Assembly: GCF_009735625.1 (NCBI RefSeq)
Contig: NZ_CP046244.1
Span: 806,001-870,000 of the forward strand
Direction: 5' to 3'
DNA length: 64,000 nucleotides
From: Moorella glycerini
GTDB lineage: Bacteria; Bacillota; DSM-521; Neomoorellales; Neomoorellaceae
Shown here: positions 7,672 to 24,337 of the stretch, in pieces
Layout: each line of letters opens with the position of its first letter
Numbering within the stretch: position 1 is the first letter of the stretch
The notes under the pieces: model-generated
Database searches by the model: none
What the model saw: the letters and a program-made list of their open reading frames with translations, nothing else
What the model was told of the DNA's origin: nothing
Made by a program: the position numbers and the translations under genes

Positions 7672-8835
7672 TCATAATGGCATGGTCAGCCTCTTGATCA
7701 GCATTGTCCCGTAGCTCCCCCGCGGCAGCTTGAAGAAAAGGCGCATTTTCTGCCTGCCGGGGTAAAGGTCATCAGGCTCCGCGGGCTGCAAACGAAAATC
7801 GCCGGGAAAAACTACGGCCTCCCTGGGCGTCGACTTAAAAAAGGCCTGCCGGACCCTGCGCAGGTTGAAACTGCTGCGCTTGATGCCTCTTTCCTCCAGG
7901 ATGGCCGCAAAGAGCCGCTCGGTGCGGGCATCGGGAAACTCCATGCGGCTGGCAGCCAGCGGCAGGAAAAGAGACTGCAAATAGGCAAGCTCTTTTCTTT
8001 CCAGGCGCCGGTAAAAAAGATAGGGTCCGGCCACTCCGCGTACAGCCGTAAGATCAAGCCCCAGTTCCTGCAAAATCCTGCGTAAAAGCTCGTTAAAAAG
8101 AAAACTCTGGTAGGCCGAAAAAAGAAGCGAGAGCTCTTCTCCCGGGATCATCTGCAGGGCATCTATGTAGGCCTTCGGTTTCTCTGCCAGCAGGGAAAAC
8201 ATCCTGCATTCCATCGTAGTTTTGGCACGCGTTAGACACGTCGCCCAATCCCCCCAGTGCTCGCGGAAAAAGAGCTTGCGTTCCCTGGCCTCTCTTTTTT
8301 CTTCCGGGTAAATACCGGTAAGGTAGATCTGCAGGCTGCCGTTATAGTGCCTTTTCAGCAGCCTTTCGGCCATAAGGCCCATCTGGCGGTCCATGCTGCC
8401 AAAACGCTGGTCGTCATAGTAATTAGGGTAGCCGAAACCCCGCACCTCATCAACCCGGCGGCTGATGCGGGATACCTCCGCCGCGTTGAGAGCGCGGAGG
8501 GTGATGGCAAATTCGTTTCCCTCCAGGAGGTCTGGCCCCATGGGCCTGTCCATGTAACCTGCGCTTCGCAGGGAAAAGTTTGTTTCTTCAGTGGTTAAGT
8601 CACTAGCATGCTTCACCGTGACGTACTGGAAGGTGTGGGCGTGCCTGTCCTTCAAACCCCCGTAAGCAAAAAGACGGTAGGGAAGGTGATGGGCCCTGGC
8701 CAGGCACATTAAAAGATCAATGGTATTCCATCCCTTCTTTTCCAAAAGGTACAGCCGATAAGGACCCTTTTCGCGGACAGGCAGTCTGGCCAGTTCCCGG
8801 ACCATGAAATCCTCGGGGATTACCTTTAATTTCAT
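7672..8835 (-). CDS. truD: TruD-family tRNA pseudouridine synthase
   Basis: 387 residues from the ATG at 8835, which has AAGGAG seven bases upstream and gives the family start MKLKVIPEDFMVRE. The TruD signature FAYGGLKDRHAHTFQYVTV follows near residue 60, with the presumed catalytic Asp in KDRHA. It carries NYYDDQRFGS near residue 130 and a long insertion domain, as in archaeal and clostridial TruD proteins. The enzyme modifies tRNA uridine 13. The frame stays open for another 69 codons upstream to 9042 with protein-like sequence (MSKVYFRILAKGLPRDYG), but the strong ribosome site and family alignment favour 8835. Confidence 0.88.
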   Translation of the reverse strand: MKLKVIPEDFMVRELARLPVREKGPYRLYLLEKKGWNTIDLLMCLARAHHLPYRLFAYGGLKDRHAHTFQYVTVKHASDLTTEETNFSLRSAGYMDRPMGPDLLEGNEFAITLRALNAAEVSRISRRVDEVRGFGYPNYYDDQRFGSMDRQMGLMAERLLKRHYNGSLQIYLTGIYPEEKREARERKLFFREHWGDWATCLTRAKTTMECRMFSLLAEKPKAYIDALQMIPGEELSLLFSAYQSFLFNELLRRILQELGLDLTAVRGVAGPYLFYRRLERKELAYLQSLFLPLAASRMEFPDARTERLFAAILEERGIKRSSFNLRRVRQAFFKSTPREAVVFPGDFRLQPAEPDDLYPGRQKMRLFFKLPRGSYGTMLIKRLTMPL

Positions 8836-9110
8836 TGTCTTACTCCTTATGCCTGTTTGTGGCCTCCCTAAATATGTACCACAATCCCTACCGCTTTGCA
8901 AATATGCCGGACCGAAAACAAAAGCCAGAACACCGTCGCCGTCGCTGCCAGCATCTAACAGCATTTTGCCAAAAGGGAACTTGATGAGGCCATAGTCCCG
9001 CGGCAAACCCTTTGCCAATATTCGAAAATAAACCTTGCTCACCCGGACCCTCTTAGGTAAAATAAAGTAAAAACTTGGTAGGGAGACTCTTGCAAGGGAG
9101 AAAACATCGC

Positions 9111-9614: not shown

Positions 9615-12600
9615 TTATGAGGAAAGCCGCCTGGCCTCGGCTTCGCGCTGCAGGCGCGCCAGCACGGCAGCGACCCGGAGCTCGCTCTTGCGCTCCTTCA
9701 TGCCGTCCGCCAGGCGGCTGGCGGCGTCCATGGCCGCCCGGGCCAGGATGCGCGGCGCTAAAAGGCTGGCCGTGTCACCCACAACCGGCACCTTGCAGCC
9801 GAAAAGCAAGTCGCCGGCGACGGGTTTCAGGGCATCTGCCGGCAGGTCGGTAACAAGGATCTTGTCGCGCTTGTCGAATAGAGAAGCAACCTCGCGCAGG
9901 ACGGGCCAGAAAAGCGCTCCCTCCCCAGCAAACTGCGCCCTGGAGTTAAGCAGGCTTTGAATCACCAGAAAATCGAGCATCTCCTGCGCTCGCGCGGCAC
10001 GGATATTTTCACGTTCAATCCGATCTGCCACCGAATAGTGATTGAATTCCTCCAGGACTATCTGTGCCAGCTTTTCGCGTAGCGGCTCAACCTCTGCCGC
10101 CGTAAGGATCTCCTCCTCCAGGAGCTGCAGGTTCTCGAGATCCCTCCATGACAGGATAAGCCGGACCTCGCGACTGCCGCCAGGTCCCCGGCAGACTGCC
10201 GCATAGCCCACTACCTCAGCACCATCCAGCCAGGGAACGGGGACGGCCAGCCGCCGCACGCATCCGGGAAGCTCGAAACCATTCAAGTATTCTAAAATAC
10301 GCTCAAAAAATGGGTCACCATACGAGGCAAAATGCACACGTCCTCCACCCCCGGCCAGCCCTTCCTCGTAAAGCTCACGGGAAACGGTAAGGACTGCTCC
10401 CTCCGGAACGCCCTCAATGCCCGCCAGGGTCAGCACGGGCTTTCCGTCCTCGTCTGCGACGACACACCCCAGGTCGCGCAGGTACCGCGACTCTTTCAGG
10501 GCCTCCCATATCGCCGCCAGGTTTACCGGCGCCGGCCGCCGGTCGCCGGCCCCGGCCAGTCGCATGTAAATCTCGTAAAGTTCCTGCGGGTTGATTTCCA
10601 TGCTCTTCGTGCGCCGGCGCTGCTCCTCGAGCCGTTTCCGGGCGCGCGCCTCCAGCTCTTCCTGGGTCAGCGTCCCCTCGGCCAGCTGGCGGAACTCCTC
10701 CGGTTCCACCGGCAGTAGGGAGACCTGCTGGGTGCCGACGATCAGGTTGGCCTTAGCCAGGCGGGACAGCAGCCGCCCGTACACAATCTCCTCGGCGCTG
10801 CCGGCATAGCAGAGATTAAGGACGTAGATATCCTGGTGCTGCTGGCCGATGCGGTCAATCCGCCCGACCCGCTGCTCGATTTTCATGGGGTTCCAGCCCA
10901 GATCGAAGTTGATGAGCAGGTCGGCGGTCTGCAGGTTCAGGCCTTCCGCCGCGGCGTCCGTGCACACCAGCACGTCGACCTCGCCGCGCAGGAACCGCTC
11001 TTTTACCTCTTCGCGGTCGACGGCAACCATGCGGCCTGTGCCCGCATCGAAATACTCGCCCCCCTGGCCGGAATAGGTGCCGATGCGCATCCAGGGGTCG
11101 GCCTGGCGCAGGCGGGCGACGATATCCTTGAGGGTATCGAAGAAACGGGTAAAGACGACAACCTGGCGGATGCGCCCGGCCTGCCGGTCGCGACGCTGGT
11201 CGAGCACATTTAAAAGTTCTTTCATCTTCGAGGAGGGCCCGCTCAGGTCGGCCATGTGGTTGATCATTTCCTGCAGCCGCTCCCGCTCCCATTCCAGATC
11301 GGCCGGGGTGCGATCTTTAAGCAGGGATTCTGCCGCCTCAAGGTCGTTTTCGTCCTCACTTTCATAGACCAGCTCCTGCAGCGCGGCGAGGCCGGAATCG
11401 CCTGCTTCCGTCACGAGCTGGTGCCGCAGGGTGGCTTCGACCTTGCGCAGGCGGCGCTGCAGCGTTTCGCGCAGGGCGTAGAGGCTGGACGCGAACCGCA
11501 GCCGCAGGAAGCTCAGCAGGAAGCTCATCATTTGCTGCGCCTGGTGGTCGCCGCGAGCCTGGATTTGCCTGGTCAGACCCTGGCAGTATTTCTCCAGCTC
11601 ATCGTAAATGCGACGTTCCAGGGGCGTAAACTCGATCCGGGGTAAGGAAAGGATATGGCGCCGGGGGAGGTTTTGCCGTAGCTGCCCACGGTCGCGGTAA
11701 ATCTCAAGCAACCGCCGGGTATGCCTGAGCATCACCCGGGAAAGGGGGGAAACACTGAATAACAAACGGTACATTAACTGGCGGTCCCTGCCGCGGGGAA
11801 CCCGGCCGTACTCCAGCCACTGGTGCAGCGTTGCCCGGATGCGCCCGTCAATGACGCTTTCCTCGATAAAGCGCCAGAGCATGGGGTCCTGCACGGGCAC
11901 TGCCTTTACAGCCCGCCGCAGGAATTCCCATTCCAGCTCCCCGGGCTCCTGCCCGTCCATGAGCCGGCCCAGGAGTTCATAGTACTGCAATGTCAGGGCC
12001 GGATCAAACTGGAAGGCGCCCACACGATTGGTCAGCGCCAGCAGGTCGCATACTTCCACGGGATGGATCTGCATGGGGGTGGCCGTGGCCAGCCACAGGC
12101 TGCGCGCCCTGCGGCGCAGGTAATTATTGGTGACAGTATAGAGAAGTCCAAAGTCCGGGTGCACCCCGCAGCCGGCCGCAGGGTTATGCCGCCGGAGGGC
12201 GTGGGCTTCATCCACCAGGGCAATGTCGAAGGGCGCCGCAAGGGAAAGGGCTTCCGCCCGCTCGCGGCGGGCGAGGAGCCCCGTCGAGACGATCACCAGG
12301 TCCGGCTCATAAAGGGATCTCGCCGGCCAGGTCTCTGCCGCCGGGAAGATATACTCGTGCGCGGTTTCCGGCGTGGTGCGCGCCAGGCCAAAGGAGAGCA
12401 GCATCTTCGCCGCCATCTGGCGGTGCCACTGCCGGGTGAGGCTCGCCGGTGCGGCAATAAGGATGCGTTTCACCAGGCCCGCCAGGTACAGGGAACGGAA
12501 GGCGAGCCCCGCCTCGATGGTCTTCCCCAGGCCGACCTCATCGCACAAGAGGTAGGAGTGGGGCCAGGTTTCAACCAGCCGGCGCACCACGATGGCCTGG

Positions 12601-13520
12601 TGCGGCCACGGCTCTACAGGCGCGGTCTCCATACCCACGAAGCGGCCGCCGGGCATCTTCGGCGCGTCGCGTAAGATGGCGAAGCGCAGCCGTTCCATGA
12701 CCGCAGGCGGTGCCGCCACCCCGGTTGCAGCCCGCGTGCCGTTCACCTCTACCGGAAAGTCTATTCCCTCCGCGAACCGGATCAGGCGGCGCCGGACCGC
12801 TTCCGGCAGGGTCAGCACCGGCAGGTGGGGGACTTTACCCATCCACAGGTTCTCAAAGGCTTCGACAGCTTCGTCGACCCGCCGGCGGTCCGTCTCGCCC
12901 CACCAATCGCAGTGGACGTCAATATTTTCAGCGTTCAGGATAAGGGCTGTTTTCGATTCGTTCAGCGTCCCGGCCCCGTACAGCCGATTGCCGAATTCAT
13001 CGTACAGGACAAACCACTTTTCGTGGACATAGCCGTCGTCCACGGCGTCCAGGGGTAGCGGCTCGCCGGTTTCTTTATGCACCCGGAAGGCCACCCGCAC
13101 CTCAAGATAGCCGTGGGCCACCATCCAGGCGAGGAGCGTTACGCCGTTTCGCACCCCCTGCGGCCAGGAGCCGGCCCGGTCGAGCTCGCCGTTCAATCTC
13201 GCCGCCAGCCGCTCCCTGTCCCCGGCCAAAATGGCCCTCACGTCTTCGGGTTCCAGGTCGGCACCGACGATAAGGCGCATCTTGCCCCCCCGGCCGACAA
13301 AGGCGGAGAAGCCCATCGAGGCGGCGGCCAGGGAGGACGAACGAAAGTACCCGGCCACGCGATCGTACCGCACCGCCAGGCGGAGGGCGGGCACGTAGAA
13401 ATCGTGCAGCATGTCGACCGGGCGGCCGTCGATCAGGGTAGAAGATGTCCTATAGGACAGGAGCCAGCGGCGGGACCGCAGGCCTTTACCTTGTAAAGGG
13501 GTTTCCATCAGATCCGTCAT
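9615..13520 (-). CDS. SNF2-type helicase with N-terminal phospholipase D motif (Hma-like helicase)
   Basis: 1301 residues from ATG 13520, preceded by GGGGAGATAGC; the longer open frame overlaps the methylase. Residues about 1-200 are a PLD-like domain with a single VHEKWFVLYDEFG motif (HxK) near residue 165. Next come the helicase motifs: DEVGLGKTIEAG (Walker A, about 330), DEAH in ALVDEAHALRR, ATATPMQ, and in the C-terminal lobe VLVCTDAAAEGLNLQ and QRVGRIDRIGQ (about 890). It is the last gene of a four-gene minus-strand set: DUF499 ATPase, small protein, DUF1156 methylase, helicase. The likely role is recognising and processing unmodified foreign DNA. Whether the PLD part cuts DNA is unknown; one HKD motif per chain implies a dimer. 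Confidence 0.88.
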   Translation of the reverse strand: MTDLMETPLQGKGLRSRRWLLSYRTSSTLIDGRPVDMLHDFYVPALRLAVRYDRVAGYFRSSSLAAASMGFSAFVGRGGKMRLIVGADLEPEDVRAILAGDRERLAARLNGELDRAGSWPQGVRNGVTLLAWMVAHGYLEVRVAFRVHKETGEPLPLDAVDDGYVHEKWFVLYDEFGNRLYGAGTLNESKTALILNAENIDVHCDWWGETDRRRVDEAVEAFENLWMGKVPHLPVLTLPEAVRRRLIRFAEGIDFPVEVNGTRAATGVAAPPAVMERLRFAILRDAPKMPGGRFVGMETAPVEPWPHQAIVVRRLVETWPHSYLLCDEVGLGKTIEAGLAFRSLYLAGLVKRILIAAPASLTRQWHRQMAAKMLLSFGLARTTPETAHEYIFPAAETWPARSLYEPDLVIVSTGLLARRERAEALSLAAPFDIALVDEAHALRRHNPAAGCGVHPDFGLLYTVTNNYLRRRARSLWLATATPMQIHPVEVCDLLALTNRVGAFQFDPALTLQYYELLGRLMDGQEPGELEWEFLRRAVKAVPVQDPMLWRFIEESVIDGRIRATLHQWLEYGRVPRGRDRQLMYRLLFSVSPLSRVMLRHTRRLLEIYRDRGQLRQNLPRRHILSLPRIEFTPLERRIYDELEKYCQGLTRQIQARGDHQAQQMMSFLLSFLRLRFASSLYALRETLQRRLRKVEATLRHQLVTEAGDSGLAALQELVYESEDENDLEAAESLLKDRTPADLEWERERLQEMINHMADLSGPSSKMKELLNVLDQRRDRQAGRIRQVVVFTRFFDTLKDIVARLRQADPWMRIGTYSGQGGEYFDAGTGRMVAVDREEVKERFLRGEVDVLVCTDAAAEGLNLQTADLLINFDLGWNPMKIEQRVGRIDRIGQQHQDIYVLNLCYAGSAEEIVYGRLLSRLAKANLIVGTQQVSLLPVEPEEFRQLAEGTLTQEELEARARKRLEEQRRRTKSMEINPQELYEIYMRLAGAGDRRPAPVNLAAIWEALKESRYLRDLGCVVADEDGKPVLTLAGIEGVPEGAVLTVSRELYEEGLAGGGGRVHFASYGDPFFERILEYLNGFELPGCVRRLAVPVPWLDGAEVVGYAAVCRGPGGSREVRLILSWRDLENLQLLEEEILTAAEVEPLREKLAQIVLEEFNHYSVADRIERENIRAARAQEMLDFLVIQSLLNSRAQFAGEGALFWPVLREVASLFDKRDKILVTDLPADALKPVAGDLLFGCKVPVVGDTASLLAPRILARAAMDAASRLADGMKERKSELRVAAVLARLQREAEARRLSS

Positions 13521-13557
13521 GCTATCTCCCCACGAACACTGGCTGCTGCCGGCTCTA

Positions 13558-16500
13558 CTAAAGGCCGAAAAGGATGGCCCCGGCCTCTTTCCGCAGCTCC
13601 TCGTCGGCCATTTCCGCCGCCCAGACGTAGAGTAGGTCGCGGAACACCTGTTCCCGGCCCCCGGTGTGCTGCGTAAGATAAGCGCGGGCGACGGGCACAT
13701 CGCCTTCCCGGTAAGCAAGGATCAAACCGTGGAGGAGGTCCCACTCGGTCTGCGGGTTATCTATACGCTTTTTGCTGCGCTCCTCCGGCCGGGCCAGGCG
13801 CAGTTTCGAGCCCCGGCGGACGAGGGGCGCATGGTAGCCGCTATCCCCGGCAGTGGTGCGCCCGGTACGCCTGCCCCGGCTTTCGTCATTGATGCCAATC
13901 ATCCGCCCGTTGACGGTATAGCCGGCGGCCCTGCCCTCCAGGCTGATATTGAGGGAACGGGAAAGGTTCAGGGCCTCATTATAGGGGAATTCGGCCAGGC
14001 CGAAGATGCCGTAGAGGGTGAGGGCCATGGCGGCTTCCGGGTTCAGGTCGTCCACCCGCAGGCGCCCCCCGGTCAGGCGGGCGATCTGGTGCTGGGCGAC
14101 GACGGCGCTGGCCTCGTTCATAGCGCGGGTGGGGCTCACCGGCTCGTCGCCGTCCAGCACCGGCCAGTGCTGGGAAAGCACATGGAGGGCGCGGCCGTAA
14201 CTGGCCACCATCTCGTCCACCGGGTTCAGGTGCAGCGGCTCGAACTCCTTCAAGCCTTGGCGCACCGCCTCGCGCACCCGCTGCGCCACCCCGGTGCCGC
14301 CGAAGCCGCTCCAGGTGGCGGGGATGCTGTCCGTTGCCCCTCGTTTACGGCAAGTCAAGAAAATCGAACTGGTGGCAGCGGCATAATCTTTAATTCTCAG
14401 GGATTGCTTGAACTCAGATTCTATGGGAAAAGACGACGTGATCACCCAACCGTTCACAATAAGTGAACGTGTAAGCGCTTCCCAGGCTTCCTGCGTCTTG
14501 TGTGTAAACATAATTGTCATTATGCCCTCGTCCTTTAAAACACGCATACATTCGGCGAAAATCTCGCCCATTAGGCGTTCGTACTCCTTTGCCGCCTGAC
14601 CAGCCGACCCGTGGCGTGTTGGGTTGGCCACGGCCTCGTCCGTCTTGTTGGTAAGCCGCCGCAGGAATAAGTCCGGGTATAAGTCATGGAGAGTACGCCG
14701 CTGCCAGACATAAAAGTAGTCGGACATCTCCGAGTACTGGACATTATTGTAATATGGAGGATCTATGCATATGAGATCGACGGAACGTTCGGGTAAGTCC
14801 ATGTGGGCAGCTGTGCCGCACCGGATACTTACTGGAGGTGCGGTTCCAACCAGCTTGTCATGCAATGGTGCCACCAGCTCCGCTATGCCTTCATATGCAT
14901 CTAAGACCTGTGAGAGAGCCCAGGCCGCGCCGGAATTGGGGCCGCTGAAGATCATCTCTCCGAATGTCCACTTTGGTGAGTAGTCATGGCGCCCAAATGT
15001 TCCCGAAACGATCGCCCGTTGCGGTATCCAACGGGTCTGCTTGCTGTTATAGTCGACACACTTGTCAATCACAAACTGGAGGTACGTTACGACGGCGCGT
15101 CCGCGTTCTTTGCCGAGTTCCTTTAAGATTTCAGACTTGAGGCGGTTAAGCTCCTCTACCAGGATAAGGTGCCCCAGGAGCTGGCGCGGGGTAAACATGT
15201 CGCACCAGCGCGTCATGCCGAAGCTAAGTGGCTGTTGTGTGTTATATCCTTGAGGGAGGTTCTCCGTAGGAATAAGCCCCTGCCGCTCCCACCCGGGCCA
15301 GCGTTCAGCAAGGCGCTTTTCAGCCTCGGCCAGGGCCGCCAGGTCCCCCTCGTTGGGCGGCCGGAAGAAGCGCACCTTCTCGGTCTTAATTTCCCCGGCC
15401 CGTTCACCGCTGGTATAGCGCTGCGGCCTGCCGTGCTTATCCAGCTTTGGCTGGTGGCGCACGGCCACGACGCAGTAAAGCCGGTCCTGCCACCTCCCGT
15501 GCGGCGATTCCCCCCGCGCCTGGGCTTTAATCTCGTCGGCGGGAATAGCTTGACGGCAGTGGACGCATAAACCGACGCCGTCCTTCACCGTCGCGAAGTT
15601 AGGGTCCTCGCCGTTGGGCCCCCGGTTGCCCCTGACGCGGTAGGTTTCAAAGCGGACTTTCCCGCCTCTTTTCCGGCCGTCAGTGACGATCCGCACGCCC
15701 CACTTATCGCCTTCTTTTGCCAGCCAGCAGGTGTTCAACAGCGGCGCCTCGCCGCCGCAATGGGGGCAGGTGACCTGGCGGCAATAAAGAAGCCCTATCT
15801 GATCCTGCTCAGGCCCATCGAACTGTGAAACGACTTCCGGGCACTTACTGCAATGTCTCCTGAGATGCTCCAATTCCTCCCTGGGAAGCGGCGAAAAAGG
15901 CGTCACATCAGCCATCTGCTGTTCGACGTGCGAAACCAAACGGTTACCCCATTTCTCCAGGTCTTTGAGCAGGTTAAGCCCAAACCTTGCCGGGTAGTCA
16001 AGAGTAGCGTGAAGTATTACAGCAGCAACAGGGTTTAATTCGTTGGCAATAACTCTATGCCCGAGGCGCATGGCCTCAAACGGGATAGAACCGCCTCCTG
16101 TCGTGGGATCAAGCACTGTCAACGGTTCATTCACTGGAGCTGGATGGTGCGCATAAGCTCGACCATAGGCGTACAAATCTTCATCGTCCCATTTAATGAC
16201 AGATCCTAAAATGCTTTTTATACGTTCCGACTTGGCAAACTCGAGCCGCTCATTCACATGGGCCGGGTCTGCAGCTACCCGTTGGACCTGGATGCGATCG
16301 CCCTTTTCAGGCCAGGGCTGCGGCAGCGGCTGCGACTCCTGGGCCCAACGTTCGATAACCGGATGGCTGCGAAGGCCCGGGTCGGCGTTGCAGAGCTTTT
16401 GAATAATCTCCCGGTTCTTAGCACGCCGTTCCTGTTCCTTTTCCATTGCCCGCAGGACGGCTTCATCGACCGGCAGCCATTCGGCTCCCGCTCTGTCGGT

Positions 16501-16800
16501 TTTCACGCGGCTGAGCATTTGCCCGGTAAGCGTCCACGGCTCGCCGTTGACCAAAGCCTGCACCTTTTCGATGCCCAGCTGGCGGAGAAACCAGTCCGGG
16601 TCCGTACCGGCAGGCAGAAGGGAGCCGAGGATGGCGGCTCTGCTCGGTACAAGGGGCCGCCGCGCCCACCAGACGTGGAGGCGATGTACAGGCGGTGCCT
16701 TGCCAGTATCGCGCTCCCGCTGGGTTTCGGCGCCGACCTGGTGGCAGGGAAAGCCCGCTTCGATGAGGCGGACGTCAGTCCTGTCTTTACCGTTCTGCAT
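13558..16800 (-). CDS. DUF1156 adenine-specific DNA methylase (Hma-like methylase)
   Basis: 1080 residues. The N-terminus carries the DUF1156 segment HRLHVWWARRPLVPSRAAI near residue 45. SAM-binding motif I is LDPTTGGGSIPFEAM near residue 230, and catalytic motif IV is DPPYYNNVQYSEM near 680, marking an N6-adenine (or N4-cytosine) methyltransferase of the beta-like type. Between them are Cys pairs resembling zinc ribbons (CSKC, CPHCGG, CVHC) and a long insert. It is 12 bp downstream of the small unknown gene and 37 bp upstream of the helicase start, so it is in one operon. It most likely marks host DNA so that the helicase and ATPase act on unmodified invaders; this role is inferred. Confidence 0.9.
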   Translation of the reverse strand: MQNGKDRTDVRLIEAGFPCHQVGAETQRERDTGKAPPVHRLHVWWARRPLVPSRAAILGSLLPAGTDPDWFLRQLGIEKVQALVNGEPWTLTGQMLSRVKTDRAGAEWLPVDEAVLRAMEKEQERRAKNREIIQKLCNADPGLRSHPVIERWAQESQPLPQPWPEKGDRIQVQRVAADPAHVNERLEFAKSERIKSILGSVIKWDDEDLYAYGRAYAHHPAPVNEPLTVLDPTTGGGSIPFEAMRLGHRVIANELNPVAAVILHATLDYPARFGLNLLKDLEKWGNRLVSHVEQQMADVTPFSPLPREELEHLRRHCSKCPEVVSQFDGPEQDQIGLLYCRQVTCPHCGGEAPLLNTCWLAKEGDKWGVRIVTDGRKRGGKVRFETYRVRGNRGPNGEDPNFATVKDGVGLCVHCRQAIPADEIKAQARGESPHGRWQDRLYCVVAVRHQPKLDKHGRPQRYTSGERAGEIKTEKVRFFRPPNEGDLAALAEAEKRLAERWPGWERQGLIPTENLPQGYNTQQPLSFGMTRWCDMFTPRQLLGHLILVEELNRLKSEILKELGKERGRAVVTYLQFVIDKCVDYNSKQTRWIPQRAIVSGTFGRHDYSPKWTFGEMIFSGPNSGAAWALSQVLDAYEGIAELVAPLHDKLVGTAPPVSIRCGTAAHMDLPERSVDLICIDPPYYNNVQYSEMSDYFYVWQRRTLHDLYPDLFLRRLTNKTDEAVANPTRHGSAGQAAKEYERLMGEIFAECMRVLKDEGIMTIMFTHKTQEAWEALTRSLIVNGWVITSSFPIESEFKQSLRIKDYAAATSSIFLTCRKRGATDSIPATWSGFGGTGVAQRVREAVRQGLKEFEPLHLNPVDEMVASYGRALHVLSQHWPVLDGDEPVSPTRAMNEASAVVAQHQIARLTGGRLRVDDLNPEAAMALTLYGIFGLAEFPYNEALNLSRSLNISLEGRAAGYTVNGRMIGINDESRGRRTGRTTAGDSGYHAPLVRRGSKLRLARPEERSKKRIDNPQTEWDLLHGLILAYREGDVPVARAYLTQHTGGREQVFRDLLYVWAAEMADEELRKEAGAILFGL

Positions 16801-16811
16801 AACAGTCGCCC

Positions 16812-17423
16812 CTACCTGCGCAGCTTCTCAAGCAGGTGAAGGACCGCCCTGTCGCCGGGCTGGCCGCCCAGCATGATGCGCATGCCGGCTAAAGCCCAGC
16901 GGTTGGCCGCCTCGCCGTACTGGGTCCCCCGCGTCAGCCAGTACGCGGCTTCCTCGCGGCTGAAACGCGCCACACGCCAGGCAATGAGCTCAACCCGGTC
17001 CATCTCCTTCAACCTTTCCTGGAGTTTAAAAATAAGCGCCAGTTTTACGCCCGCCTCCTCGTCCAGGGGCAGATTGCCCCGGAAAGTAATACGGCCATTG
17101 CCAAGGACCCGCTGCAGTTCAAGGGGGATCCCGGCCGCATCGCAGACGCTGCCGATAATCACGCGGATTACAGGCAAACAGCGGCGCAGGGGCTGGCCGT
17201 ACAGGAGCCCCCGGTCCCTAAGAGCCGTTTTACCCGCGGCCCCGCCGTTTTTCTGCAGGTCCTCCCCGGGTGCAAAGCGCTCTTTAACCACAAAGACGGG
17301 CACAGGCTTGTCTTTATATTCGGTTACCCGCAGGACCCAGGGGGCCTGCGTTAAAAGAGGGCGGATGCGCTGCTGGAAATCCCGCTCCAGGTCCCAGCCG
17401 GTGGCTGGCTTCTGCTTTGTCAT
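16812..17423 (-). CDS. Small uncharacterised protein of the methylase-helicase-ATPase locus
   Basis: About 203 residues. ATG 17423 is preferred over ATG 17429 because GAGGG is six bases before it and touches the other. I see no catalytic motif. It begins WDLERDFQQRIRPLL, followed by a predicted beta-rich region with VTEYKDKPVPVFVVKERF, and ends in a helical, Arg-rich segment (ELIAWRVARFSREEAAYWLTR). It is tightly packed between the DUF499 ATPase (31 bp) and the methylase (12 bp), so it is almost certainly part of the system. It could be an adaptor or specificity factor. Similar short proteins accompany some DUF499 loci, but I cannot name the family with confidence. Confidence 0.75.
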   Translation of the reverse strand: MTKQKPATGWDLERDFQQRIRPLLTQAPWVLRVTEYKDKPVPVFVVKERFAPGEDLQKNGGAAGKTALRDRGLLYGQPLRRCLPVIRVIIGSVCDAAGIPLELQRVLGNGRITFRGNLPLDEEAGVKLALIFKLQERLKEMDRVELIAWRVARFSREEAAYWLTRGTQYGEAANRWALAGMRIMLGGQPGDRAVLHLLEKLRR

Positions 17424-17453
17424 GGTCATCCCTCGCTACTTTTGTCGATTCTG

Positions 17454-20400
17454 TTATTTTTTAAGCTCCTGGATAAGCGGGCAATCGTCAGCGGGATCCG
17501 AGATCTCGAGGAAGGCCTCCGTGTGCTCTCCTTTCGCCACGACACCGGCCAGCACCTCGAACAGCTCAGCGAGGGCCTTCATGGAGCCCGGGGTAACGCC
17601 GGTGAGCTGGATACGGAGGACGCCCCCTTCCGGAAGCTCAAGGTCCACCAGGTCCAGGCTGTCAATGGTGGACCTGGCGCCCCGGTTGTAGAGGCCGCCC
17701 AGCCGCCGCAGCAGCGGCAGGAGCTTTGCGGCGCCTTCTTTGCCCTCAAGGGTAAAGGCCCGGCGGCCGGCTGTGACCCATCCCCGCTCGGCCGCCTTGG
17801 CCGGGGTGATCAGCACATCGCCGGGCCGGGGGGTATACAGGGCTGCACCGGGCCCCTGGATGAGTTCAGGCTTTTCTTGCTGGTCCGGCGTGCCACGGAA
17901 AACCAGCAGGCGGCCGTTCCTGACCAGGGTCACCACAGCCTCCTGGAAGTCCCGGGCCGGGATTTCCCCGTATTTTTCTGCCAGGTTGCCCGCGACCTCC
18001 TGCACCGTTGCCGCCCCGCCCCCGCTAACCGTGTAGAGCACGCCGTCACGAACCCTGGCCGGATCAGGCCGGCGGGCTCCCATCCAGCCGCGCTGGTTGG
18101 CTCCCTGGACGGTGACGAGCCCGTAGCCCGCACCGGCCAGGTTGACCCCCATGGGAATCTCGTTTTCCCGGTGGTAGAATTCGGCCGGCTTTAGACTATC
18201 TTCTGCGCCCATGCGATAAACGCACCATACGCCCTTCTGCACCCCGGTGCGAATAATTTGTTCAAAGACACCCGTACTCTCCAGCACCGGCCAGCTGCGC
18301 CGGCAGGAGAAGTTCTCCCGCAGCTTCTCCAGGGTTATAGTGTCGCCCTGCTCAAAGAAGAGCCTGCTCAGGTTCAAAAGGTCCGCCTGGGTTGTATTGC
18401 TGCCGGTGAGAAGCTCACCGTCATTGATCAAGGTGGCGCGGATTTGCTCGATAAAGGGCATCCCGCCCTCGCCCCCGGCTGTCTTGATCTCCTTGCGGAC
18501 GATATGCCCTGCCGCCCCGGGGTAGTAGAGGCTGGTGTAGATGCTGGCGACGGCGGTAACCAGCGCCTGCTCCCGCTCACGGTAGCGTTTCTGAAAATCC
18601 TCCTCCGCCAGCCGCCGGGGGTTGAGGCCATAGCTCTGCGGCCTGTCGCTTAAGATGCGCATTGCTTTGACCTGGCGCGCAATAGCCTCGATACGCTGCC
18701 GGACTTCTTGAACCTGGGTGCTTTGACTTGCGAAAAGCCCTTCCTGGCGGTTTATCCCTTGCACAGCGACAGTTTCTGGAACCAGGATAAAGATGAGGTT
18801 CTGCTGCTGCCGGGGTCTATTAACACCCCTGGTGGTCACCATAGCCTCAACATCGATGGTTGCGGCAGCCAGCGCTACGACCCCCAGCACGGGCCTCCCC
18901 TTACCATCAGGCAAATGTTCCGGCAGCGAGACGTCGTGTTCAATATGGAACAGCCCCGAACCGCCAGTGATGATCTTCCGCGCCGTGGCCTCAAGGAGCT
19001 CCTGCACCTGGCCTGCCGTGATAGTCTTGCGGATCCTGGCCAGGATGTTGTTAATCGTCGGCTCGCGGCCGGCAAAATATTTTCCCTGTTCGTAACGGAG
19101 GTAAAAGGCACTTTCATTTATTTCCTCTAACGCCATGCGTACCTGGGGCGGCGTGAGGCCGGGAAAGGATACAGAAAACAGCGCCTCCGATTCGGTAAGG
19201 CCGTAGATTCTGGAATCCAGGCCCTCTTCGCGGCCCACCAGGCTGTGCAGGAAGACCGTCTTCCAGGTGTACTCGTAAAGGGGATAACCCTCCGGGTGCG
19301 GGTTGCGCTGGTCAGCAAGTTCCGCGTTGCTACGGCCGCCCTCGAGGGTGCCCGTGTCGACGCTACCCACGTCGGCATTAAGGACGAACAGCAGGTCCGA
19401 ACTGCCTGTACGGCCGAGGATCTCGTTGACCACGCGGTCCGAGCGCAGGTCCAGGTGACAGGCATGGATCATGGGTACGTCCTGCTGTTGCAGCCACAGG
19501 CTGCGGACAGCCAGAGCCAGCACCCGCAGGACGCCGCGCGTGCCCTGGAAGTTCTCGGCACTGGCCAGCTTGTTATTCAGGAAGTCTATCAGGGTGGGGT
19601 GAAAGGGATAGCTGGCGATCATCCGGCCCTGAAAATCCTCGCTAGTAGCCTCATCCGGGAGCATGCTGGCGTTGCGGCGGTACATCTGCATATATTCCCC
19701 GGCGGTCGCCCTGGCAGCGTCGCGGTTTATCGATAGAAAAAGCCGCTTGGCGAGTACGGACGCGATCTCGGCGGCGTGCACCGGCGTAATCTGGACGGCG
19801 TCACGAGCCACCACGCTGGCCACGCCCTTGACGGCTTTTTCGCCAATTCCCAGGGCATCGTCTTCGCTAACCTCTTCGCCGCGCACCTGGCTGATGAGCT
19901 TCGCCAAAAGCTCCGTTTGGCGGGCAAAGGCATCGGTTGCGCTGGCCAGCGTGAGGATGACCGCGATCCCGGGATGGTTGCGGGCATAACCGTGAAGCCC
20001 CATTAGAAAGGCAGCGAGCTGGTTCGCGCCATCGGGCCGCGCCGCTTCCAGCCGTGCCGCGTACTGGGCCAGCTCATCCAGCATGATGATGGCCTTTCGC
20101 CCTCCCAGCACCCTTGCAAAATACGTTTTACCGGGTGCGGCATAGGAGCCGGCCTCCTCTTCCACCTGGCGGTAGAGCTCTTCGCCGCCCATTTGATAGG
20201 CAATCTCCCCCCAGAGGGTGTAGGGTACCAGGGCATTACCTTTCGGTTTATGTACCGGGATCTCGTCACCTGCCACGCCGACGACAGCGACTGAACCGGG
20301 CTCGGGGAGAAGCTGCGGGTCAAGAAAGTCCTGGATCAGGCCCCGCAGCTCTGTACCCCGGTAAGCAATGTGGGTGCAGGCGATTAGCGTATGGGTCTTA

Positions 20401-20678
20401 CCGCCGCCAAAAGCCGTTTCCAACCGGTGGATAGCTGGAACCGTCATGTCACCCGCGAGGCGACCAAAAACTTCCGCCAGGGTTAAGCGCAGGCCCTGCG
20501 TCGGGTAGGTAGCTTCACGGAAAAATAGTTCCGCGTCGGTGTAAATACTATCTATGACGCCCCGGCCGCTACGGTAATACTCGATGATGGGGCTTAAGGA
20601 CGCTGTAAAAACCTCGGGGTTAAACGTCCCGGCCAGGATCTCGGGACGTGGCCGGCATGTATCCAGTACCGATTGCAA
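17454..20678 (-). CDS. DUF499 P-loop ATPase (Hma-like ATPase)
   Basis: 1074 residues from TTG 20678. This start is chosen because GGAGGT lies eight bases upstream and the product begins LQSVLDTCRPRPEIL, the usual DUF499 opening. Walker A is AFGGGKTHTLIA near residue 95 (the family's GGGKTH), and Walker B is AIIMLDELAQY near 198. The remaining 850 residues include a large helical region and a C-terminal part with a winged-helix-like look. It is the first gene of the four-gene set. DUF499 ATPases accompany DUF1156 methylases in many defence islands and are thought to power DNA-related steps; the mechanism here is unknown. The 285 bp upstream of it hold no gene I can support. Confidence 0.9.
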   Translation of the reverse strand: MQSVLDTCRPRPEILAGTFNPEVFTASLSPIIEYYRSGRGVIDSIYTDAELFFREATYPTQGLRLTLAEVFGRLAGDMTVPAIHRLETAFGGGKTHTLIACTHIAYRGTELRGLIQDFLDPQLLPEPGSVAVVGVAGDEIPVHKPKGNALVPYTLWGEIAYQMGGEELYRQVEEEAGSYAAPGKTYFARVLGGRKAIIMLDELAQYAARLEAARPDGANQLAAFLMGLHGYARNHPGIAVILTLASATDAFARQTELLAKLISQVRGEEVSEDDALGIGEKAVKGVASVVARDAVQITPVHAAEIASVLAKRLFLSINRDAARATAGEYMQMYRRNASMLPDEATSEDFQGRMIASYPFHPTLIDFLNNKLASAENFQGTRGVLRVLALAVRSLWLQQQDVPMIHACHLDLRSDRVVNEILGRTGSSDLLFVLNADVGSVDTGTLEGGRSNAELADQRNPHPEGYPLYEYTWKTVFLHSLVGREEGLDSRIYGLTESEALFSVSFPGLTPPQVRMALEEINESAFYLRYEQGKYFAGREPTINNILARIRKTITAGQVQELLEATARKIITGGSGLFHIEHDVSLPEHLPDGKGRPVLGVVALAAATIDVEAMVTTRGVNRPRQQQNLIFILVPETVAVQGINRQEGLFASQSTQVQEVRQRIEAIARQVKAMRILSDRPQSYGLNPRRLAEEDFQKRYREREQALVTAVASIYTSLYYPGAAGHIVRKEIKTAGGEGGMPFIEQIRATLINDGELLTGSNTTQADLLNLSRLFFEQGDTITLEKLRENFSCRRSWPVLESTGVFEQIIRTGVQKGVWCVYRMGAEDSLKPAEFYHRENEIPMGVNLAGAGYGLVTVQGANQRGWMGARRPDPARVRDGVLYTVSGGGAATVQEVAGNLAEKYGEIPARDFQEAVVTLVRNGRLLVFRGTPDQQEKPELIQGPGAALYTPRPGDVLITPAKAAERGWVTAGRRAFTLEGKEGAAKLLPLLRRLGGLYNRGARSTIDSLDLVDLELPEGGVLRIQLTGVTPGSMKALAELFEVLAGVVAKGEHTEAFLEISDPADDCPLIQELKK

Positions 20679-20963: not shown

Positions 20964-22385
20964 TCACAGATTACCATTACCATGGAATTGACAGGCTTCA
21001 ATAAGCAGCAGGTCATGTCGTTCTGCCGCCTTCTGATGCAGTTCCTCGCTGAAGCCGTTCCGGGCAAAGAGGGCGTAATATACTTGCGGCGGCCGCTGAA
21101 AATGTGGTACCACGGCTTTGACCTTTTGCTGGAGTTCGGAGAGTACATTTGCCCCTACCGGTTTCCCCCACCATTTACACTCACCCACTAAAATGGCCGA
21201 TTCGTCCTCATTTATGGCCAGCAGGTCCAATTCGTTCTGCCCGTCCCACCAGGAACCCAGGCGATAAGGATAAAAGGATAGTTTACCACGCTGCCCCAAA
21301 AATCGCAAATGCTGCCGGCAAACCTCTTCAAAAACCGGACCAACAAAATCCGGGAAATGGGGCTTAATCCTGGTTTCCAGCACCCGTTCTGTTTCTCCTT
21401 CCTCCAGGTCGCTGCGGTTGGGATAAACGAAGCGAAACCAGAAGCGTAGAAATTGATCCCGTAACCGGTAAATACCCCGGCGGCTTTTCTGCGGCTGCTT
21501 TTCCGTCACCGGCACCAGACGCCGGATTAAACCCATGTCCCTTAATATGTCCAGGTAACGAGAAGTGGCGCTGCGGTCGTGCAGGCCCGCCGCCTGGGTG
21601 ATTTCATTTAAACGGGTTTTACCATGGGCAATAGCTCTCAGCACGGCAAAATAATTGGCCGGCTCCCGCAGTTCCTGCATAAGAAGAAAACGAGGTTCTT
21701 CATAAAGGAAAGTGCCCCGGCGTAACACCCGGCGGGCAATGCCGGCAAAAAGATCATCTTCATCCATAAATTCCAGCAGGTATGCCGGTACTCCACCGAG
21801 CACGGCGTAGGCTTCCACAAGCCATAGGGAATCCCTCCCCGGGAAAAAGCCAGCAATATCGTGAAAATGCAGGGGCTCAATCAGGTATTGCCCGGTACGC
21901 CTACCATAGAGAGCACTTTTATATCCCAGAACCTCCCTCTCCATCACCCCCACATAGGAACCACACAAAATACATATTACCCCAGTATTCCTCAATTCCT
22001 CGTCCCAGACTTTCTGCAAAATGGAAGGAATAGCCGGATTGGCTTCCATGAGATAGGGAAATTCATCCAGCACCACAATAAGCTGCTCCTGCCGGGCCAG
22101 CCCGCCCATAAAACGGAAGGCAGCCTCCCAGGAAGGAAAGGAAAAACCCGTTTCTGCCTGTCCGTAAGCCCGCTCCCACAGTCGTTGCGAAAAAGCGGCC
22201 AGCTGCTCCCGGTCAGGCGCCAGGTCGGCCACAAAAAAGACGTGTTTTTTCTCCCGGCAAAAAAACCTGAGCAGTTCCGTTTTCCCAACCCGCCGGCGGC
22301 CGTATAACACCAGCAGCTGGGCACGACCGCTTCTATAAACTTCCTCCAGCCAGTTTAATTCAGTTTGGCGGTTTACAAAAACCAT
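20964..22385 (-). CDS. Archaeal-type AAA ATPase with DUF234 C-terminal domain
   Basis: 473 residues. N-terminal ATPase_2 domain: Walker A YGRRRVGKTELL near residue 35, Walker B LIVVLDEFPYLM near 108, and arginine-rich sensor region. A winged helix follows at about 255-310 (ITQAAGLHDRSATSRYLDILRDMGLI). The DUF234 region ends with NELDLLAINEDESAILVGECKWW, a D...ExK arrangement like a PD-(D/E)xK nuclease core. These ATPases are common, often orphan, accessory genes of archaea and thermophilic Firmicutes. Function is unproven. It sits 285 bp from the DUF499 gene and has lower GC, so it is probably a separate unit. Confidence 0.88.
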   Translation of the reverse strand: MVFVNRQTELNWLEEVYRSGRAQLLVLYGRRRVGKTELLRFFCREKKHVFFVADLAPDREQLAAFSQRLWERAYGQAETGFSFPSWEAAFRFMGGLARQEQLIVVLDEFPYLMEANPAIPSILQKVWDEELRNTGVICILCGSYVGVMEREVLGYKSALYGRRTGQYLIEPLHFHDIAGFFPGRDSLWLVEAYAVLGGVPAYLLEFMDEDDLFAGIARRVLRRGTFLYEEPRFLLMQELREPANYFAVLRAIAHGKTRLNEITQAAGLHDRSATSRYLDILRDMGLIRRLVPVTEKQPQKSRRGIYRLRDQFLRFWFRFVYPNRSDLEEGETERVLETRIKPHFPDFVGPVFEEVCRQHLRFLGQRGKLSFYPYRLGSWWDGQNELDLLAINEDESAILVGECKWWGKPVGANVLSELQQKVKAVVPHFQRPPQVYYALFARNGFSEELHQKAAERHDLLLIEACQFHGNGNL

Positions 22386-22447: not shown

Positions 22448-24337
22448 ATCGAGTAGGAGGGGACGGCTAGCCCCCGTCCTCTCACACCACCGGACATGCG
22501 GGTCCGCATCCGGCGGTTCACCAAGCTTGACGAAGATAAGAATAGCGCTCGGTTAAGCTCATCAGGCCCTGGGATTGCCAGTAGGCATTGCCCAGGGCTC
22601 TATTCATTGGCCCATGGGCCATCCGCCACAGCCCTTTGCGGGCATTGGCGAATTCATGCACTACCCATTCCGGCAATCCCAATGCGCGTAGTTCGCGGTA
22701 CCTGGTCCGTACTCGCTTCCACTGCTTCCAGAGACACATGCGCAGCCTCCGCCGCGTCCAGCTTTCTAAGTTCTTAAAGATGCTGGGCGTGTCGGCCAGG
22801 GCGAAGTACCCTATCCAGCCGCCCAGGTAGGCGTTCAGGCGCTCTATGCGCTCGGCCATCTTTAAGGGTTTATTCCGGGCGGTTATCTCCCGGATTTTCG
22901 TTTTCACCCGGTCGATGGTCTGCGGCGCCAGGCGGATAAGGATTACTCCTGCCTTGTGTTTGTACATGCTGAACCCCAGAAATTTCAGCTTCCACGGCCG
23001 GTCTACCGCGCTCTTCTGCTCGTTGATCTTGAGCTTCAACCGCTCCTGCAGGAAGTTGCGGATACTGGCCATGACCCTTTCTCCTGCCCGTTTGCTTTTG
23101 ACGTAGATGTTGCAGTCATCGGCGTAACGGACGAACTTGTGGCCCCTCTTTTCCAGTTCTTTGTCCAGGTCGTCCAGGAGTATGTTGGCCAATAACGGGC
23201 TTAAGGGTCCGCCCTGGGGCGTTCCTTCTGCCGTCTCCATGACCACTCCGTTTACCATGACGCCTGCCTGGAGATAGCGGCGGATAAGGGTAAGTACCCT
23301 CTTATCTGCCACTTTCCGGGCCACCCGGGCCATGAGGATGTCGTGGTTTACCCGGTCGAAGTATTTCTCGATGTCCAGGTCCACGGCCCATTCGTATCCT
23401 TCTTCTACGTATTGCCGCGCCTTCTTTACCGCATCATGGGCTTTCCTTCCGGGACGGAACCCGTAGCTGGCCTCTGAGAACTGCGGTTCGAAGATGGGCG
23501 TCAATACTTGCAGGAGGGCCTGCTGGATTAGGCGGTCCATTACGGTGGGTATCCCTAACATCCGTTTGCCTCCCCCGGGTTTCGGGATTTCGACCCGGCG
23601 CACGGGCTTCGGTCTGTAGGTTCCCGCGAGCAGTTCTTCCCGGATGCGCGGCCACTCGGCGCGTATTTGGTCCCGCAACCGTTCGGTCGGGATGCCGTCC
23701 ACACCGGGCGCGCCTCCGTTCCGCTCTACCCGTTTCAGCGCGGCCAGCATGTTCTCCCTGGCCACCACCTGCTCCATCAGGCCGCTACCTTGGCCTCCGC
23801 GAGGTGACGTCCCGCTTTGTGCCGGAGAAGAACTCGGCCCTCCCGCGCTCCCCCGTGGCTTCACCACTTCTTCCCGCGGGCAGGCCCCTTGCGGGGTTTT
23901 CTGCTGTCTCTGTCCTTCTCGCGAACGCACCGGTTTCACCTCTGACTTGATGTTCGGGCCTTCCCCTGGAGTTCATGACCCCCAGGGTACTATGCCCTCT
24001 GCTGACTCCTGCCGGTTCAGCCGTACCTTCCGATACGGTTTACCAGCTCTCCCTGGCTTATCCGGCAGGCCTCCCCGGGTAAGAGCGTTAACCTTCGCCC
24101 CGTGCCCGCCCCATATACTCTACCGTCCCTTGGCAGCCTGGGATTTCGCTGTGTTCCGCCAGCTTATCCGAACGGTCTAGCCTCGTATGGGGTTCTTGTT
24201 CATCGGGCCGTGGCTTTGCCTCCGGCTTCCTTCGGATCCCACCTCGCGATGGACACCCTTGCCTTTGGCTAGCAGACTGGTGCTGCCTCGCCTGCAGTGG
24301 ACTTTCACCACTAAGTTAACGCCCATGCCGGGCGCAC
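22448..24337 (-). mobile_element. Group II intron, class C-like, complete
   Basis: On the minus strand the intron opens with GTGCGCCCGGCATGGGCG (first base 24337), the classic bacterial group II 5' end. It carries an LtrA-type ORF in domain IV. A domain V hairpin with GCCGGATGCGG and CCGCATGTCCGG lies at about 22485-22520, a GC-rich domain VI follows, and the element ends CTACTCGAT at 22448. Total length is 1890 bp. The bases just before the 5' end are a strong terminator stem and T-run, the favoured insertion site of class C introns. No copy of the uninterrupted site is in the window. It does not interrupt a recognisable gene. Confidence 0.85.
22518..23939 (-). CDS. ltrA: Group II intron reverse transcriptase/maturase
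   Basis: 473 residues. After a basic, low-complexity N-terminus, RT blocks run from about residue 65: GGAPGVDGIPTERL, IPKPGGGKRMLGIPTVMDRLIQ, ASYGFRPGRKAHDAV, AVDLDIEKYFDRVNHD, GTPQGGPLSPLLANI and the catalytic FVRYADDCNIYV near 290. The maturase (X) domain follows with LKFLGFSMY and the Arg/Trp-rich C-terminal helices. There is no HNH endonuclease domain, as expected for class C proteins. All catalytic residues are present, so it may be active. The stop codon overlaps the start of domain V. Confidence 0.95.
   Translation of the reverse strand: MKPVRSREGQRQQKTPQGACPREEVVKPRGSAGGPSSSPAQSGTSPRGGQGSGLMEQVVARENMLAALKRVERNGGAPGVDGIPTERLRDQIRAEWPRIREELLAGTYRPKPVRRVEIPKPGGGKRMLGIPTVMDRLIQQALLQVLTPIFEPQFSEASYGFRPGRKAHDAVKKARQYVEEGYEWAVDLDIEKYFDRVNHDILMARVARKVADKRVLTLIRRYLQAGVMVNGVVMETAEGTPQGGPLSPLLANILLDDLDKELEKRGHKFVRYADDCNIYVKSKRAGERVMASIRNFLQERLKLKINEQKSAVDRPWKLKFLGFSMYKHKAGVILIRLAPQTIDRVKTKIREITARNKPLKMAERIERLNAYLGGWIGYFALADTPSIFKNLESWTRRRLRMCLWKQWKRVRTRYRELRALGLPEWVVHEFANARKGLWRMAHGPMNRALGNAYWQSQGLMSLTERYSYLRQAW

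Follow-up and report, generated by a model that had tools for sequence, protein, structure and literature searches.

A conserved DUF7680 gene in a distinct branch of DUF499-centred, BREX-related operons: likely kinship with DUF3780 and lone copies on viral contigs

What is the small gene lodged between an ATPase gene and a methylase gene in a putative defence operon of Moorella glycerini, and does it belong there? The operon lies within a stretch of contig 1 (positions 806001–870000 of a 3.56-Mb genome; this 64-kb stretch is called the window, and its numbering is used below) and consists of four intact genes on the minus strand, running from 20678 to 9615 in the order DUF499 ATPase, small protein, DUF1156 methylase and SNF2 helicase, with intergenic gaps of 24, 11 and 37 nucleotides (nt). 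The initial annotation had described such a tightly packed operon with an SNF2/PLD helicase, and the gene structure bears it out; its statement that the small protein has no recognisable domain does not hold, since the 205-residue product (203 from the next ATG) of the gene at 16812..17429 (minus strand) matches the Pfam family DUF7680 (PF24728; E 1.2e-38), scoring 132.9 bits with a curated cut-off of 24, and carries the conserved motif EE-x-x-YW (16932–16955, minus strand). Neither PADLOC nor NCBIfam gave a match to the protein at a limit of E 1, and its closest relative in the sampled loci, from Moorella thermoacetica, is 96% identical. What the locus yields is thus a name, DUF7680, together with a likely kinship, for a part that had formerly looked domainless.

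The neighbourhood analyses demonstrate that the small gene is a real, conserved component of the operon. A genome scan (one genome per species), with search patterns that favour the long form of DUF7680, returned 98 DUF7680 relatives; the analysis covered the 80 best, and 77 of these 80 loci had at least 1 kb of upstream sequence and could be assessed on that side. A DUF499 ATPase gene lies directly upstream of DUF7680 in 73 of these 77, so that the gene is not sporadic, which had been named beforehand as the outcome that would speak against it, and its earlier description as a genuine embedded component stands. In 72 of the 73 loci no more than 84 nt separate the ATPase stop codon from the DUF7680 domain, which leaves no room there for a further gene; in the remaining locus the distance is 310 nt. 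All four genes were found in 44 of the 48 loci with at least 3.5 kb of upstream and 8 kb of downstream sequence, and in 52 of the 80 loci overall, many of the others meeting contig ends; in 52 of 52 the genes share a single strand. Gaps above 400 nt occur at 14 of 67 DUF7680–methylase junctions and at 14 of 53 methylase–helicase junctions, and some of them hold genes that look Abi-like, PIN/VapC, RloB with an ATPase, or DUF262-like, labels that come from reading the sequences with no database search. The loci cover Bacillota, Thermodesulfobacteriota, Myxococcota, Pseudomonadota, Planctomycetota, Verrucomicrobiota, Armatimonadota, Synergistota, Bacteroidota and Ignavibacteriota.

Within the phylum of M. 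glycerini, 299 genomes gave DUF7680 in 14, DUF499 in 44 and DUF3780, the small component of a sister branch discussed below, in 13; DUF499 adjoins DUF7680 in all 14 (once on a 7.3-kb contig, L035), and in no genome of this sample do DUF7680 and DUF3780 occur at one and the same DUF499 gene. In a second phylum (148 genomes) the corresponding numbers are 5, 24 and 1, all five DUF7680 genomes having DUF499, adjacent in four. DUF7680 is therefore as frequent as DUF3780 in the first sample and commoner in the second. One genome of the genus Moorella (G132) has two separate loci, L042 and L028, one with a DUF7680 system and the other with a DUF3780 system. Twelve plasmid records matched DUF7680, and the three examined hold a short DUF7680 beside DUF499 in cyanobacterial operons. 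Although its three large proteins match HmaA, HmaB and HmaC, these neighbourhood counts, above all the position beside DUF499 in the testable loci and in every DUF7680 genome of the first phylum, lead us to regard as highly improbable, and to set aside, the explanation that the locus is an ordinary Hma operon of three genes, which a small gene has joined as a hitch-hiker.

Several loci do weigh against so strict an association. Four of the 77 (L079, L087, L106 and L111) have no DUF499 directly upstream, and in L106 and L111 DUF7680 stands apart from DUF499 though the genome has DUF499 elsewhere; four of the 48 roomy loci (L074, L104, L110 and L111) are incomplete, L074, L104 and L110 missing one or both downstream partners despite sufficient flank. 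In Desulfonema magnum (L228 and L111), and likewise for L230 and L106, a DUF499 gene of the DUF7680 type lies separate from DUF7680, with no methylase or helicase in the stretches viewed.

To which named system, then, does the operon belong? The name Hma, proposed for it earlier from the three large parts, fits in part: the helicase matches the PADLOC model HmaA (1.7e-52), the methylase HmaB (2.1e-65) and the ATPase HmaC (1.9e-66). However, Hma was defined by PADLOC (PMC8565338) as a three-gene operon (with Hma-type operons reported in 26 phyla), the Moorella operon has four genes, its top helicase model is PLD_Helicase and not HmaA, and DUF499 systems have since been re-classed as BREX-related (BR) (Rakesh and Krishnan 2026; PMC12839542). 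The NCBIfam anti-phage DUF499/DUF1156/PLD set (NF042962, NF042963 and NF042964) provides the best NCBIfam match of each large protein, but with 170 of 1200, 220 of 1000 and 296 of 1100 bits these lie far under the cut-offs and the proteins are not equivalogs. In PMC12839542, Type-1 BR systems have no small gene, Type-2 systems have an HKD-helicase and DUF3780, and Type-3 systems have PglZ; a standalone DUF3780 gene is given for 98% of Type-2 taxa, FnIII-like domains before the ATPase C-terminus for 53% of them (hence not strictly), and the paper reports no definitive homologue of DUF3780.

With Type-2 the Moorella operon shares the DUF499 ATPase, the DUF1156 methylase and the HKD-SNF2 helicase, as well as a small gene that separates the ATPase and methylase genes, and the DUF3780 loci that we examined have the same gene order; ATPase, N6-methylase and SNF2 helicase, a combination expected of Type-2, are found by profile in this one locus. 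It differs in that its small gene is DUF7680 and not DUF3780 (for which the M. glycerini genome has no match), in that its ATPase ends in DUF7744 without the Fn3-associated domains of DUF3780-type ATPases, and in that the trees of ATPase, methylase and helicase each place the DUF7680 type in a clade of its own. The sister branch is thus already known to have a small fourth component, and what is new is a branch with DUF7680. DUF3780 is named in one paper of the literature searched, and DUF7680 and DUF7744 in none of it; the supplementary files were unreadable, so the branch may sit in the data of PMC12839542 under another name.

The separateness of the branch is seen most clearly in the ATPase tree (68 sequences), in which the DUF7680 (28), DUF3780 (16), no-small-gene (19) and short-DUF7680 (5) ATPases, the last including cyanobacterial plasmids, each occupy one side of a branch with support of 100, 100, 99 and 97, respectively. 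Quicker trees of methylase and helicase recover these four groups as well, with weak support for the short one in the methylase tree (43). For the ATPase and helicase trees the tree tool warned that long branches meet, which counts against these groupings. The additional domains of the ATPases follow the groups: DUF7744 terminates 14 of 14 DUF7680-type ATPases scanned (of 72) and none of the 12 DUF3780-type, 14 no-small-gene or 4 short-DUF7680-type ATPases scanned; Fn3-associated domains occur in 12 of 12 DUF3780-type ATPases scanned (of 16), and no Pfam Fn3-type domain was found in the 14 of the DUF7680 type, that of M. glycerini included; HEPN_Swt1 is present in 7 of 14 no-small-gene ATPases scanned (of 19) and in none of the 14 of the DUF7680 type. 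The four short-DUF7680-type ATPases have none of these three features. In gene order and in the HKD motif, by contrast, the DUF7680 and DUF3780 types go together and stand apart from the rest. Both have the order ATPase–small gene–methylase–helicase in loci with all genes in view, whereas no-small-gene loci run helicase–methylase–ATPase where all three are in view, and the helicase HKD motif is found in 48 of 49 DUF7680-type, 3 of 3 short-type, 9 of 14 DUF3780-type (the pattern missing the other five) and 0 of 15 no-small-gene helicases. Since the DUF7680 operon would be Type-2-like in its working and yet is without DUF3780, we file it, on this comparative evidence, as a distinct new branch of DUF499-centred BREX-related systems and not as a Type-2 member. 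The M. glycerini genome holds, in addition, a second DUF499 system (L041; contig 1, 3170000–3189000), which bears HEPN and has no small gene; this Type-1 system shares DUF499 ATPase, methylase and helicase with the DUF7680 operon, and differs from it in its helicase–methylase–ATPase order, in the HEPN_Swt1 domain at the ATPase N-terminus and in having neither a DUF7680 nor a DUF3780 gene.

Are the two small proteins that hold the same slot related? The AlphaFold2 model of DUF7680 (mean predicted local distance difference test, pLDDT, 90.8; predicted template-modelling score, pTM, 0.87) has strands at residues 31–38, 41–52 and 69–77, a helix at 78–93, a strand at 118–122 and helices at 124–136, 143–154, 158–169 and 173–188. 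The DUF3780 model (pLDDT 76.0, pTM 0.71, from an alignment of 11 sequences) has strands at 31–36, 44–49 and 62–68, a helix at 70–90, a strand at 101–105 and helices at 107–120, 125–137, 140–151 and 163–173, so that the core order bbb-a-b-aaaa is common to both. The two families also have, in our reading, a similar motif E-E-x-x-[YW]-W ... W, and they share gene slot, gene order and HKD-helicase context. A number of results weigh against kinship: the DUF7680 helices at 11–27, 106–109 and 195–204 have no counterpart in the DUF3780 model; profile–profile comparison gave weak probabilities of 0.5% and 2.8%, then 17.6% with deeper alignments, and 2.7% for the short-DUF7680 set alone against DUF3780; and fold searches with both models, PDB included, found no confident match. 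In those searches the DUF7680 model had no VIA match above Z 3.4, and for the DUF3780 model the top VIA entry in the PDB was a designed protein, matched over 63 residues at Z 5.4, while viral models yielded no confident match.

DUF7680 might accordingly be unrelated to DUF3780 and have replaced it in the slot independently, the common core order being a coincidence of two small alpha/beta proteins. The weak profile scores and the moderate confidence of the DUF3780 model speak for such a replacement, as does the position of the short-DUF7680 ATPases, nearer the no-small-gene group than the DUF3780 group with modest support (82). Considering, on the other hand, that the 17.6% alignment spans 150 collinear columns with a score that column shuffling reached once in 300 trials and block shuffling three times in 300, that motif, slot, order and context agree, and that the low-Z rows of both models list the same kinds of protein (RecO, p84/p101, Zuotin), we think an unrelated replacement unlikely, and remote homology of DUF7680 and DUF3780 likely, not proven. 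If DUF7680 is a far relative of DUF3780, one subunit family spans the HKD branch, and the two families can be used to cross-check which residues matter.

What might the small protein do? Gene content and order, co-inheritance, conserved catalytic motifs, the close linkage of the DUF7680 and ATPase genes and the core element order held in common with DUF3780 are observed, and from them we infer the activities, the subunit contacts and defence itself. We consider it probable that the operon encodes a DUF499-centred, BREX-related, restriction–modification-like defence system of a distinct branch, with DUF7680 as a coupling subunit that stands in for DUF3780. The DUF1156 methylase would mark host DNA, the DUF499 AAA+ ATPase would be scaffold and sensor, and the HKD-SNF2 helicase would be a translocating nuclease that attacks unmarked DNA; DUF7680 would be a stoichiometric, non-enzymatic subunit, docking on the ATPase and coupling it to methylase and helicase, and would have here the role of DUF3780, probably a far relative, in Type-2 BR systems. 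The term adaptor, which had been suggested at the outset, appears plausible. The ATPase seems the likeliest docking partner, because of the strict ATPase–DUF7680 coupling and because DUF7744 is a lineage-matched ATPase tail, and the DUF1156 end of the methylase is a second candidate because of the pairs of DUF7680 with a methylase stub on viral contigs that are described below. As for an enzymatic DUF7680, which we set aside, no catalytic motif was seen among the invariant residues, no confident PDB match was found and VIA scores did not exceed Z 3.4, results that do not in themselves exclude it.

The DUF7680 gene is found, moreover, on 15 viral contigs: in six with the operon, in five alone and in four with a methylase stub. 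The four-gene viral operons are of the long type in L156 and have a short or diverged DUF7680 in L173/L209, L195, L210, L211 and L212 (four of the short or diverged operons were run against Pfam). The five lone genes (L127, L128, L129, L130 and L157) show no trace of other operon genes in view, and in L221, L216, L217 and L218 DUF7680 is followed only by an N-terminal DUF1156 stub, L217 and L218 being identical over 830 nt and so leaving three distinct stub cases. Whole-record searches found no DUF499 on the nine operon-free contigs, records that may be fragments. Phage genes identified with PHROGs accompany DUF7680 in L128 (terminase, dUTPase), L157 (DNA methyltransferase, ribonucleotide reductase), L127 (SSB, Erf) and L221 (endolysin), and the phage nature of L129, L130 and L216–L218 is that of the IMG/VR assignment alone; in L128 and L157 the lone DUF7680 lies within ~1 kb of a DNA methyltransferase gene. 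Four further viral loci were left unclassified, L214 and L215 with only a methylase in view and L198 and L202 with the ATPase at the contig end. DUF3780 occurs on 12 viral contigs, 10 with DUF499 and 2 without (L165 and L171, negative over the whole records); in L165 the lone DUF3780 gene (9980–10444) directly precedes a phage terminase gene. Neither the Moorella small protein nor one lone viral copy matched any of 50,697 phage records of INPHARED, and PHROGs gave no match for the six lone or stub-linked viral DUF7680/DUF3780 proteins compared.

Lone copies are also found in cellular genomes. The prophage L128 comes from Thermoactinomyces daqus H-18. This strain has a single DUF499 gene, which belongs to its full operon (L096), and four copies of DUF7680, so that three copies are lone: the one in the prophage, L087 and L227. 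L087 and L227 lie on contigs whose mobility is unproven. The L227 copy (890–1498) is highly diverged and lies on a 16-kb contig with a weak FtsK-like match; this contig looks mobile. In the genome HOT.MB2.58 the start of an operon lies at the end of a contig, and one copy, L079, is lone. Lone small genes thus number, for DUF7680, five viral and three genome contigs and, for DUF3780, two viral contigs.

The lone copies may be what is left of operons that have decayed, or morons picked up by chance, and may play no part against the host system. Whole operons do ride on viral contigs, as the six of 15 attest, and can decay there; four more carry DUF7680 with only a methylase stub and no DUF499; and the two phage-record queries without a match are in keeping with such an origin. 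The stub pairs in particular fit decay, in that L216 retains another gene between DUF7680 and the stub, as in host operons, and in that the viral methylase scan used peptides of the DUF1156 end and so favoured stubs of that end, even if three cases with the same two pieces suggest some use. Set against decay are the five viral contigs on which DUF7680 appears with no remnant of the other genes in view, and the DUF7680 tree (80 proteins, nine of them labelled lone: L127–L130, L157, L079, L087, L227 and the stub-linked L221), which needs seven changes between lone and operon states, at least five of them forced by starred branches, a count that cannot separate gain from loss. The 71 rows labelled as systems include unlinked, partial or cut loci (L069, L074, L106, L107, L110, L111 and L117 among others), and two lone rows are very long-branched. 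Since some lone copies fall within host clades of high support (99 for L087 with Thermoactinomycetaceae, 100 for L221 with Selenomonas and Oscillospiraceae), the tree suggests that some were captured from hosts. Residues R152, E159, E160, Y163, W178, G182, L187 and G189 of the C-terminal core are, in addition, kept in nine of nine lone or stub-linked copies, which points to selection. On balance we give decay or chance carriage somewhat less than an even chance.

A second explanation of the lone copies turns on the protein itself: DUF7680 might be an antitoxin-like brake that spares host DNA from the ATPase–nuclease complex, carried by phages and mobile elements so as to switch the defence off. 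The strict coupling of DUF7680 to the ATPase gene would agree with a brake, as would the three lone copies in T. daqus H-18, the single strain examined with a full operon and four DUF7680 genes. Residues of the N-terminal half are patchy in lone copies, however (R34 is kept by two of the six copies aligned there, R51 by three of seven), which a brake alone does not predict; we judge the proposal distinctly unlikely. This looser N-half is itself a hint at most, considering that the short operon DUF7680 proteins diverge too.

We suggest also, tentatively, that DUF7680 and DUF3780 form one superfamily of obligatory adaptors of HKD-BR systems, and that the adaptor gene, without the rest of the operon, was acquired repeatedly by phages and mobile elements, which use it as a dominant decoy. 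A lone copy would keep the C-terminal helical core that docks on the complex, loosen the N-half and so poison assembly, and DUF7680 with a bare DUF1156 stub, as in the three distinct viral cases, would make a two-piece decoy. A vibriophage protein, OrbA, blocks BREX via BrxC, according to PMC11580459, so that phages can attack a related ATPase; by analogy, lone DUF7680 would be the subunit-mimic form of such an attack. Because the whole operons and truncated pairs on viral contigs also fit decay, we hold the decoy proposal to be the less likely of the two, and the lone phage copies are candidate decoys whose inhibition of the defence system is a hypothesis. If true, it would be a form of anti-defence that works by imitating one of the defence system's own subunits, the surprising part of these findings and a cheaply testable one: the phage copies allow a cheap and direct test of which subunit a phage might attack.

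The remaining features of the operon are as follows. The first gene, for the BrxC-like DUF499 AAA+ ATPase (17454..20678, minus strand; Pfam DUF499, 3.7e-28), starts with TTG where homologues begin, in a frame open as far as 20798, and encodes the Walker A motif GGGKTH (20391–20408), a Walker B-like LDEL (20058–20081) and the C-terminal DUF7744 domain (17457..17756; Pfam, 3.6e-42). The DUF1156 DNA amino-methyltransferase gene (13558..16800, minus strand; Pfam DUF1156, 9.2e-17, and N6_N4_Mtase, 1.6e-7) has the motifs DPTTGGGS (16087–16110) and DPPY, which opens DPPYYNN (14743–14763). The SNF2 helicase gene (9615..13520, minus strand; Pfam SNF2, 1.8e-8, and Helicase_C, 1.2e-18) has a nuclease-like N-terminus with an HKD-kind motif, H-x-K ... 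N-E-S ... N-x-E (12927–13025), followed by DEVGLGKT (12519–12542) and DEAH (12201–12212); all these motifs are on the minus strand. The HKD/PLD part, assigned by profile and motif and not by structure, matches PADLOC PLD_Helicase (5.6e-60) and PbeA (2.3e-58) and NCBIfam phospholipD_antiphage (NF042964; 6.8e-88, yet far under its cut-off), with no PLD domain among the helicase's Pfam matches.

Beside the operon lies a gene with ATPase_2 and DUF234 (20964–22385, minus strand) that matches the PADLOC phage-defence candidate PDC-S27 (1.8e-52) and has no relative at E 1e-20 in the other operon loci compared (up to L171), and a group II intron reverse transcriptase/maturase gene is found near the defence genes (22518–23939, minus strand). 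On the other flank, the gene at 7672–9042, presumably TruD, has relatives on operon loci of two related genomes (L028/L047 and L030), so that the site may be common to them.

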